64,000 bases of DNA from Candidatus Sumerlaea chitinivorans (GTDB lineage: Bacteria; Sumerlaeota; Sumerlaeia; Sumerlaeales; Sumerlaeaceae), in the NCBI GenBank assembly GCA_003290465.1, contig CP030759.1, forward strand, positions 970,672 through 1,034,671, written 5' to 3'. The notes under the pieces are model-generated. The model worked only from the letters and a program-made list of their open reading frames with translations, had not been told where the DNA came from and ran no database searches. This document shows, one piece after another, positions 27,274 to 30,611 of this stretch (within the stretch, counting starts at the first letter, position 1; every line of letters starts with the position of its first letter). A program made the position numbers and the translations under genes.

Positions 27274-28647
27274 ATGGCAGAAATACTCCCATTCATCGGA
27301 ACACGCTACAACTCGCAACTCATAGGAGATCTGAGCAAGGTTATCGCTCCGCCCTATGATGTGATCACCCCGGAGATGCAGGAGGCACTTTATGAGCGCC
27401 ATCCGAACAACATTGTTCGAGTCGAGCTGACGAAAAATGAGGAGGATGACAGTTTCGCCGACAAATACGCGCGAGCAGCAAACTATCTCCGAACATGGCG
27501 GAGCGACGGCGTTCTGATTGAGGATAACCAACCCTCCATCTACCTTTACGAACAAGAGTTTGCTCTCCCGACCGGCGAGGTGAAAAAGCGGCGTGGCTTT
27601 TATGCCTTGGTGAAATTAGAGGACTATGCGTCCGGCGGCATCAAGGCGCACGAGCAAACGTTTGCTGGACCCAAGGCGGACCGCCTCAAGCTTCTTCGTG
27701 CGACCCGCACAAATGTTAGCCCGATTTTTGTGATTTACAATGACCCGGATGGGGCAACCGCAGCGCTGCTGAACGAGAGGTTTGATAATTCAAAGCCGTG
27801 GGAAGAAGTGGTGGACGATGACGGCGTCACCCATCGGTTGTGGGTCGTCTCTAAGAAAGAGTTCATTTTGCAACTGCGCGAACTCATGAAGTCGCGGAAT
27901 CTTTTCATTGCAGACGGACATCATCGGTATGAGACGGCGTTGGCTTATCGCAACGAGATGCGTCAGGAGACTGGGAAGTGTGATGGTAAGCAGCCTTTTG
28001 ACTACATGATGATGTACCTCACCCACGCGGAGCAGGACGGGCTGGTGATTCTGCCTACGCACAGGGTGCTGACAAAGGCGATCATGGCAGAAGTTGACCT
28101 GAAAGAAGCACTCGATGAGCTGAAGGAGTCGTTCGAAATCACCGAAGACCGCGTAAATCTGAAAAAGTCGGCCGAGGAAGGAAAACGTCTCACAGAAAAA
28201 GTCGAGAAGTTGGGAAAGAGTCGCCCCAGTTTCGGGATGGTGGATGCGAATGGCAAGGTTCGCTATTTGCGCCTGAAAAAGAATGTCGATCCTGCGGATC
28301 TCATTGAGAGTGATGACGTCCCTGCCCCAGTCCGGAAATTAGATGTCGTGCTGCTTCACAACTACATCATCAATCGCGTAATGATTGGGAACCCAGAATT
28401 TGAATTAGCTGACGATGAATGCCTGTACGTTCGTGATGCAAAGCGCGTTCTCGATCTCCTTGCTGATAAAAAGGGATTGCTTGCGTTTATCATGAACGCC
28501 ACTCCAATGGAACAAGTTCTGGAAATCGTGAGTGCTGGGTACAAGATGCCCCACAAAAGCACTTACTTCCATCCAAAGCTGGCAAGTGGTTTGGTGCTTC
28601 GAAATATGGAAATCGAGTTCCAGAAGAAAAAACGCACTTCTTGCTGA
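27274..28647 (+). CDS. DUF1015 family protein
   Basis: 457 residues matching DUF1015 from the N-terminus (FIGTRYNSQLIGDLSKVIAPPYDVI). Other conserved stretches are KAHEQTFAGPKADRLKLLRAT, SPIFVIYNDPD, FIADGHHRYETALAYRNEM and LPTHRVLT. The His-rich ADGHHRYETA suggests a metal or phosphate site. The function of the family is not established and I do not assign one. It is soluble and has its own promoter and ribosome-binding site. An ArgRS-like gene follows after 85 bases on the same strand. Confidence 0.85.
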   Translation: MAEILPFIGTRYNSQLIGDLSKVIAPPYDVITPEMQEALYERHPNNIVRVELTKNEEDDSFADKYARAANYLRTWRSDGVLIEDNQPSIYLYEQEFALPTGEVKKRRGFYALVKLEDYASGGIKAHEQTFAGPKADRLKLLRATRTNVSPIFVIYNDPDGATAALLNERFDNSKPWEEVVDDDGVTHRLWVVSKKEFILQLRELMKSRNLFIADGHHRYETALAYRNEMRQETGKCDGKQPFDYMMMYLTHAEQDGLVILPTHRVLTKAIMAEVDLKEALDELKESFEITEDRVNLKKSAEEGKRLTEKVEKLGKSRPSFGMVDANGKVRYLRLKKNVDPADLIESDDVPAPVRKLDVVLLHNYIINRVMIGNPEFELADDECLYVRDAKRVLDLLADKKGLLAFIMNATPMEQVLEIVSAGYKMPHKSTYFHPKLASGLVLRNMEIEFQKKKRTSC

Positions 28648-28732
28648 TGGCCCACGTTATTCTCGTGTCCCATCAAACCCACAAAGATTATGGCGCTCGT
28701 GTGTTTTTATTGGGATTAGGTGAGGCCACAAA

Positions 28733-29503
28733 ATGCAGGAATGGGGCCTACGGGGCCGGTTGAAATCATTTCTACTCGATGCGTTCTCTCAGGGTTTAGG
28801 TGTGGCCATTGAAGATGTCGTTTTGGAAAGAAGCCACTCCCCTGATTTTGGCGATTATTTTACCACCGGTGCGATAACCATCGCCCCTCGGCTCGAGCGT
28901 TCTGCCGCAGAAGTCGCGTGCATGGTTGCCGAAAAGCTTAGTGCGAAGGCTGCTGACTGGATTAGTCGTGCGGAAGCATGTGAGAATGGATTTGTAAATA
29001 TGTTTATTCGCTACGCTCCTGCCGCGACCGCTTTGCTTGAGCTGGAGGGAAAACTTCACGCCTTGCTCCTCGCTGAACCAATCGTCCCCGAGAAAGCTCT
29101 GACTTATGTGGCAAACTCAACCGATAAGCGACTCGCGGTAGTTGGCGATGTGCTGCGTGCAATCACTCCGTTTATTCGTCATAGTTCGTCCCAGCCACCC
29201 TCCCGTGACGCGCTGACGTTGCTACGCGAGTCTGAAGAAATGGATTTAATACTTCAGCTCCACGAGTTCTCGAGAATTATCACGCAGAAGCCGAGATCTC
29301 GGCACAGCATGGTCGGCTATCTTTACGTTACGAGTGTGAAGTTTCGAGATGGTTTTATGTGGGGAAAACGTGTTGCCCCATTTTGGTTGAGCAATAGTGC
29401 CTCAACCCCGCTACATGAGGCACGAGAATTCCTGGTCACGCTAACTTGCAAAATTTTGCTTCTTGGAATTTCACTTGTCGGGAGAAGTGATGAAACCGCG
29501 TAA
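28733..29503 (+). CDS. Arginyl-tRNA synthetase-like protein without catalytic domain (N-domain plus DALR domain)
   Basis: 256 residues. Residues 1-112 resemble the N-terminal tRNA-binding domain of ArgRS (SPDFGDYFTTGAI at 36-48, GFVNMFI at 86-92). Residues 122-142 (ALTYVANST then GDVLRAI) look like the edges of the catalytic domain's opening segment, but the intervening HIGH motif is absent. Residues about 161-250 resemble the C-terminal DALR anticodon-binding domain (EEMDLILQLHEF, HSMVGYLYVTSVKFRDGF, PLHEAREFLVTLTCKILLLGISLVG). No KMSKS is present, so it cannot aminoacylate. AGGTGAGG stands seven bases before the ATG. Its 3' end overlaps aguA by 14 bases. It may bind or modify tRNA-Arg, or be a decaying paralogue. 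Confidence 0.75.
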   Translation: MQEWGLRGRLKSFLLDAFSQGLGVAIEDVVLERSHSPDFGDYFTTGAITIAPRLERSAAEVACMVAEKLSAKAADWISRAEACENGFVNMFIRYAPAATALLELEGKLHALLLAEPIVPEKALTYVANSTDKRLAVVGDVLRAITPFIRHSSSQPPSRDALTLLRESEEMDLILQLHEFSRIITQKPRSRHSMVGYLYVTSVKFRDGFMWGKRVAPFWLSNSASTPLHEAREFLVTLTCKILLLGISLVGRSDETA

Positions 29504-30611
29504 ATCCCACCTGCGTCACAAGCCTACAAGAGATGGAAAAAAATCCGCCCCAATGGCTGCTGGGTATCGCATGCCCGCGGAATGGGAACCCCATGCAGCC
29601 ACTTGGATTGCATGGCCGCACAACCGAAGTGATTGGCCGGGCAAATTCTCTCCGATCCCTTGGGTCTACGCTGAAATTGTCCGCCATCTGTCGAGCTCCG
29701 AGACGGTTTGTGTCATTGTGCGAGACAAAGAGATGCAAGAGTCCGCTCAGCGAGTCTTGGCAAAAGCAGAGGCGGTGAGAGGCCCCGTACGTTTTTTCAT
29801 TGCCCCCACCAATCGTACTTGGACTCGCGACTATGGTCCCACTTTTGTGGTGCGCGAAAGCGACGGAAATGTGGCTGCTGTGAAGTGGGGATTCAATGGT
29901 TGGGCGAAATATGACAATTATTTGCTCGACGAAAAAGCCGGGCAGCAAATCGTGCGATGGGCCAAAGTTCCCTGCTTGCGTCCGAAACGCTCCGACGGAA
30001 CACCGATCATTTTAGAGGGCGGAAGTATTGACGTAAATGGAGCAGGTTGCCTTCTGACAACGCGCGAGTGTCTTTTGAGCTCAGTGCAAGAGCGAAACCC
30101 CGGTTTTTCTCAGGAGGATTATGAAAACGTCTTTCGCGACTATCTCGGCGTAAGAAAAACCATTTGGCTGAATCGGGGCATTCTTGGAGATGATACCCAT
30201 GGGCACGTGGATGACCTTGCACGCTTTGTTCGTCCCGACACAATTGTGACCGTAGTCGAAGAGGATTCGACAGACCCGAATTTCGAGCCCTTGCGCGAGA
30301 ACCTCCGCATTCTCAGAGCTGCAACCGACGAATCCGGAAAGAAAGTCCGCGTTGTGCCCCTCCCTCTTCCCCAGCCAGTCATCTTCGACGGACAACGACT
30401 ACCAGCCAGCTATGCGAATTTCTACATCGCGAATCGCGTCGTGTTGGTTCCAACGTTCAACGACCCAAACGACCGCATTGCGTTAGATCGGCTCCAACGG
30501 TTGTTTCCCGACCGAAAAGTTGTGGGGATCTGCTGTGTTGATTTGGTGCTTGGACTCGGTACACTCCATTGTTTGACGCAGCAGCAGCCGGCGGCCACGT
30601 CAGCTAAGTGA
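29490..30611 (+). CDS. aguA: Agmatine deiminase (PPADF family)
   Basis: 373 residues from ATG 29490, preceded by GGGAG; a TTG at 29463 would add nine. It should convert agmatine to N-carbamoylputrescine, a step in arginine-to-polyamine metabolism. Family features: MPAEWEPHAATWIAWPH, TWTRDYGPTF, EGGSIDVNG (about 174), GDDTHGHVDD (about 232) and a C-terminal Cys near 361 in GTLHCLTQQQ as nucleophile. The start lies inside the end of the ArgRS-like gene, so the two are coupled. The arginine-linked pairing is suggestive. Confidence 0.9.
   Translation: MKPRKSHLRHKPTRDGKKSAPMAAGYRMPAEWEPHAATWIAWPHNRSDWPGKFSPIPWVYAEIVRHLSSSETVCVIVRDKEMQESAQRVLAKAEAVRGPVRFFIAPTNRTWTRDYGPTFVVRESDGNVAAVKWGFNGWAKYDNYLLDEKAGQQIVRWAKVPCLRPKRSDGTPIILEGGSIDVNGAGCLLTTRECLLSSVQERNPGFSQEDYENVFRDYLGVRKTIWLNRGILGDDTHGHVDDLARFVRPDTIVTVVEEDSTDPNFEPLRENLRILRAATDESGKKVRVVPLPLPQPVIFDGQRLPASYANFYIANRVVLVPTFNDPNDRIALDRLQRLFPDRKVVGICCVDLVLGLGTLHCLTQQQPAATSAK

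Follow-up and report, generated by a model that had tools for sequence, protein, structure and literature searches.

Introduction

HisZ, GluQ-RS/YadB and PoxA are paralogues of aminoacyl-tRNA synthetases that have been reused for other work (PMC9437257), and all of them keep the catalytic fold. Derivatives of arginyl-tRNA synthetase (ArgRS) that have no catalytic core are also known. The vertebrate-specific protein DALRD3 binds arginine tRNAs together with METTL2 and is needed for m3C modification (PMC7237682); it has a C-terminal DALR domain and an N-terminal part without a recognisable domain. In bacteria, NrtL (NCBIfam NF045898, 327 aa) has been named an 'ArgS-related anticodon-binding protein'. 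Its profile covers both ends of ArgRS and skips the core, and our literature search found no paper on it. The origin of proteins built from the tRNA-binding ends of synthetases has so far mostly been guessed.

Here we describe a short gene in a window of 64,000 nucleotides, the whole stretch of DNA analysed, from Candidatus Sumerlaea chitinivorans (Candidatus Sumerlaeota, family Sumerlaeaceae), which is genome G000 of the 39 genomes of its class that we compared. Unlike HisZ, GluQ-RS/YadB and PoxA, the encoded protein keeps only the tRNA-binding ends of its parent enzyme. It resembles NrtL in holding both ArgRS ends without the core, but NrtL is longer, its profile spans more of both core edges, and the short protein and its two orthologues reach 29.5, 30.6 and 15.8 bits against a curated cut-off of 340. 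With DALRD3 it shares a C-terminal DALR domain detached from a synthetase core. The parallel with DALRD3 drawn in the initial annotation is fair as an analogy; the short protein differs, however, in keeping the ArgRS N-domain where DALRD3 has no recognisable domain, and bacteria already have a named parallel in NrtL. Core-less ArgRS derivatives are therefore not new in themselves. The present variant has an unusually readable history.

Results

The short gene begins with ATG, and its coordinates and length are exactly those first reported (Table 1). The initial annotation described an intact frame with a good ribosome-binding site and coupling to aguA, which our analysis bears out: an SD-like sequence lies 7 nt from the ATG, and aguA, which starts at 29490, shares 14 nt with the end of the short gene. 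The two genes are likely co-transcribed. The window genome consists of one contig of 3.29 Mb and has one full-length argS, of the E. coli type (type "A" below), located elsewhere, about 12 kb before the window; it gives the sole match to the catalytic domain PF00750 in the genome.

Table 1. Features of the short gene and its neighbours (positions within the window)
Feature	Position	Strand	Basis
DUF1015 protein, conserved upstream neighbour	27274..28647	+	Pfam PF06245; synteny
SD-like AGGTGAGG	28718..28725	+	7 nt before ATG of the short gene; from sequence
ArgRS-derived protein without catalytic core, 256 aa	28733..29503	+	ORF, Pfam, orthologue comparison
ArgRS N-terminal (Add1, D-loop-binding) domain, residues 16-92	28778..29008	+	Pfam PF03485, 41.5 bits
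Phe39, equivalent to E. coli ArgRS Phe36, A20 pocket	28847..28849	+	Alignment; contacts from PMC8975779
Phe87 and Asn89, equivalent to E. coli Phe82 and Asn84, A20 pocket	28991..28999	+	Alignment; PMC8975779
Fast-evolving linker replacing the catalytic domain, residues 103-158	29039..29206	+	10-29% identity among orthologues; no significant ArgRS-core match
DALR anticodon-binding domain, residues 159-250	29207..29482	+	PF05746, 18.5 bits; type-B profile; loop length; PDB fold matches
Short-family motif R-D-G...A-P-x-W, residues 205-218	29345..29386	+	No counterpart in full-length ArgRS
aguA-like agmatine deiminase (PAD_porph)	29490..30611	+	Pfam PF04371; synteny

The domain content also agrees with the initial annotation, which saw an ArgRS derivative stripped of its core but still carrying the two tRNA-binding domains. 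The Arg_tRNA_synt_N match (PF03485) lies well above its Pfam cut-off of 21.5 bits. The DALR_1 match (PF05746) is weaker but real: it falls under the cut-off of 22.3 bits, and the Pfam DALR match is absent in the orthologues from G001 and G007, yet the domain is backed by an ArgRS profile, by a loop of 36 residues and by fold matches to ArgRS. A Pfam search of the short protein found no PF00750 catalytic domain, and the HIGH and KMSKS-like motifs are missing, so that of the features of a functional arginyl-tRNA synthetase only Add1 and DALR are present. A phmmer search of the PDB placed the same two regions on E. coli ArgRS in matching order, at residues 30-92 and 482-571, and under a type-B ArgRS profile (see below) they are likewise collinear with the ends of the enzyme. 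Structure prediction from the single sequence was of no use (pLDDT 36.5). A model built from three sequences reached a modest mean pLDDT of 66; its best PDB matches were eight ArgRS chains at probability 1.00, with E-values of only 0.03-0.2.

Two stretches of the linker, TYVANST and GDVLRAI, had been read as the remaining edges of the catalytic domain. Against ArgRS profiles the linker does no better than shuffled versions of itself (43 of 300 and 28 of 300 shuffles score as well) and neither stretch is conserved in the two orthologues, and we reject this reading. The distance to the LxEFP-like helix would also suit the first DALR helix.

Orthologues of the short form occur in two further genomes of the class, G001 and G007, which belong to one sister genus. 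Their proteins (262 and 263 aa) are 32% identical to that of the window and are encoded by intact frames, and the order DUF1015, short gene, aguA is the same in all three genomes. A search of 84,980 species genomes returned these two orthologues as the only matches to both ends, other hits being confined to the N-domain region, and a plasmid search found no relatives; the known orthologues number only three. In a tree of DUF1015 and AguA the three short-bearing genomes form a clade (92/96), and in the type-A argS tree they are grouped with support 99. One origin of the short gene therefore suffices.

We then compared the same slot across the rest of the family. G004 holds a full-length type-B ArgRS there (555 aa, HIGH present), ending 3 nt before aguA. 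It has no second argS, but the genome is about 92% complete, so a type-A copy may have been missed. In G002 and G005 the DUF1015 gene and aguA are adjacent without the short gene, their matched regions lying about 70 and 130 bp apart, and in G006 aguA was located and DUF1015 was not found. A recent deletion, considered in the initial annotation, is not what these genomes indicate: the orthologues in the sister genus are already short, even though the same slot of G004 retains a full-length argS.

Several further observations concern this neighbourhood. Of the 39 genomes of the class, 35 have the DUF1015 protein; within Sumerlaeaceae its identity is 65-69%, and its gene adjoins aguA in most members. 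In G003 the two genes are separated by an insert of 1.8 kb, which was considered as an ArgRS relative and rejected, since it holds an unrelated 610-aa gene (L114:1417-3249, minus strand); judging by this filling, genes seem to enter and leave the gap readily. A weak match in G005 was likewise rejected as an argS relic, lying within a gene that adjoins a DNA-modification methylase.

The position beside aguA had been taken as suggestive of a role tied to agmatine. We find this link weak, because G004 has a full-length argS in the slot, whereas G002 and G005 have no gene there. The neighbourhood is inherited and says little about function, and we reject an agmatine-specific function read from it.

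Two sets of full-length ArgRS, A and B, can be told apart in the class, and they are only about 25% identical to each other. Type A, which is E. coli-like, is found in the window genome, in G001, G002, G003, G006 and G007 and in a few other families; G005 has one type-A copy, split across contigs. Type B occurs in most of the class and in G004, and its nearest solved core is that of Campylobacter jejuni ArgRS (3fnr). Within Sumerlaeaceae, G004 has type B only and the other members type A only. The two types are patchy in the class even inside one family (in f2, G008 has type B and G027 type A), a pattern suggesting that replacement occurred repeatedly. The G004 enzyme (L008:136-1803, minus strand) has the KMSKS-like motif VKFGKRAG where the inspected class members have serine (KxSxR), and its end branch is the longest among the type-B enzymes (0.91); it is possibly also drifting, or at an early stage.

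The short gene is very probably an in-situ relic of an ancestral type-B argS that was displaced by type A. This rests on three observations. The three short proteins score 56, 49 and 41 bits with the type-B profile against 32, 13 and 30 bits with the type-A profile. The DALR loop, measured from YL to AR, spans 36 residues in 23/23 type-B enzymes and 3/3 short proteins, compared with 27-30 residues in 12/12 type-A enzymes. Finally, the short gene occupies the slot of the G004 type-B argS. N-domain, DALR domain, DALR loop and slot are accordingly common to the short protein and type B, and the difference lies in the missing catalytic domain, HIGH and KMSKS-like motif. In a tree of N-domain plus DALR, however, the short proteins are placed not inside B but on a long branch that lies between the two types, and trees from either domain alone fail to place them. 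That position would suit descent from a duplicated type-A argS, or from a third ancient ArgRS-like lineage that landed in the slot by chance. We regard both origins as improbable, given the profile scores favouring B, the B-specific loop length and the identity of the slot with that of G004.

Is the short gene under selection? Among the three orthologues differences at third codon positions (about 0.64-0.72) are close to saturation, and second positions are the slowest (0.38-0.45 different overall and 0.27-0.36 in DALR). At the protein level identity is 41-54% in DALR, the most conserved part, 34-39% in the N-domain and 10-29% in the linker, and fifty-odd columns are invariant, including the DALR motif RDG...APxW. 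On this sequence evidence the gene is under constraint, part of which is new.

The initial annotation also raised early-stage decay, and a decaying pseudogene could be open by chance, perhaps through translational coupling to aguA. The short gene does change much more quickly than the genes beside it (32% identity, compared with 60-65% for these and 73% for type-A argS), and several relatives hold nothing related in the slot. Yet coupling to aguA alone would not preserve amino acids, second codon positions are the slowest, whole motifs are invariant, and three frames in two genera stay open despite near-saturated third positions, the chance of one unconstrained frame of such length remaining open being about 5e-6 to 8e-6. 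The gene shows neither the disrupted frame nor the lost protein-level constraint of an argS pseudogene. This explanation is largely refuted and very improbable; the short gene is neither a recent deletion nor plain decay.

The residues of the N-domain give an indication of what has been preserved. In E. coli ArgRS, F36, Q40, A78 and N84 hold A20 of tRNA-Arg, which stacks on F82 (PMC8975779). The equivalents of F36, F82 and N84 are kept in 3/3 short proteins. The A78 site has small residues (C, T or A), and the Q40 site has Phe where type B has A, S or T. The E. coli ArgRS N-terminal sequence used for the pocket alignment agrees with the PDB alignment over the pocket. On the side of the tRNA, A20 is present in 5/5 tRNA-Arg genes examined in the window genome, and the tRNA-Lys and tRNA-Asp genes examined there are without it. 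The short protein would likely bind tRNA-Arg without charging it. In its DALR domain the RVL part has been swapped for the new motif; given this replacement, anticodon recognition may be changed.

Alternatively, tRNA binding may have been lost and the protein may act in a HisZ-like manner as a protein-protein regulator, for example of type-A ArgRS or of AguA, through a new RDG..W..APxW surface. The invariant DALR motif without ArgRS counterpart, the strong conservation of DALR relative to the rest of the protein and the likely co-transcription with aguA are in line with such a role. The invariant A20-pocket residues Phe39, Phe87 and Asn89 are nevertheless hard to explain without tRNA, the link to aguA is older than the truncation, as G004 shows, and G002 and G005 have the DUF1015-aguA adjacency without the short gene. 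We consider this alternative unlikely, although less so than a type-A or third-lineage origin.

Discussion

Our preferred account, which we think has a good though by no means assured chance of being right as a whole, is that the short gene is a type-B argS relic kept as a non-catalytic protein that grips tRNA-Arg at both ends. We infer both the displacement history and the tRNA binding. The ancestral Sumerlaeaceae would have carried a type-B argS in the DUF1015-aguA slot. A type-A argS would then have arrived and taken over tRNA-Arg charging, the direction of replacement being our reconstruction. In the common ancestor of the window genus and its sister genus, about 335 residues of the old type-B gene product, comprising the Rossmann core and the KMSKS region, would have been lost in a single event, leaving a linker of 45-55 residues instead, and in other Sumerlaeaceae lineages the old gene would have been lost entirely. 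Both ends would have been retained under selection as a non-catalytic protein, in which the N-domain pocket would recognise A20 in the D-loop while the DALR bundle would sit on the anticodon arm, with no charging. Such a protein could serve as a tRNA-Arg adaptor, chaperone or sensor, presenting tRNA-Arg to a partner. A more specific proposal is that an ArgRS displaced by another type became, without leaving its slot, a regulator or adaptor dedicated to binding tRNA-Arg and unable to charge it, and that a sister genus still has the full-length ancestor at this place. It seems to us evenly poised between true and false.

The steps are visible within one family: a full-length enzyme, a core-less protein or an empty slot, and a replacement enzyme elsewhere. 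The account makes a clear prediction, namely A20-dependent binding of tRNA-Arg without charging, and the short gene provides a case with which the uncharacterised NrtL group can be compared. If true, this would be the traceable birth of a synthetase-like protein.
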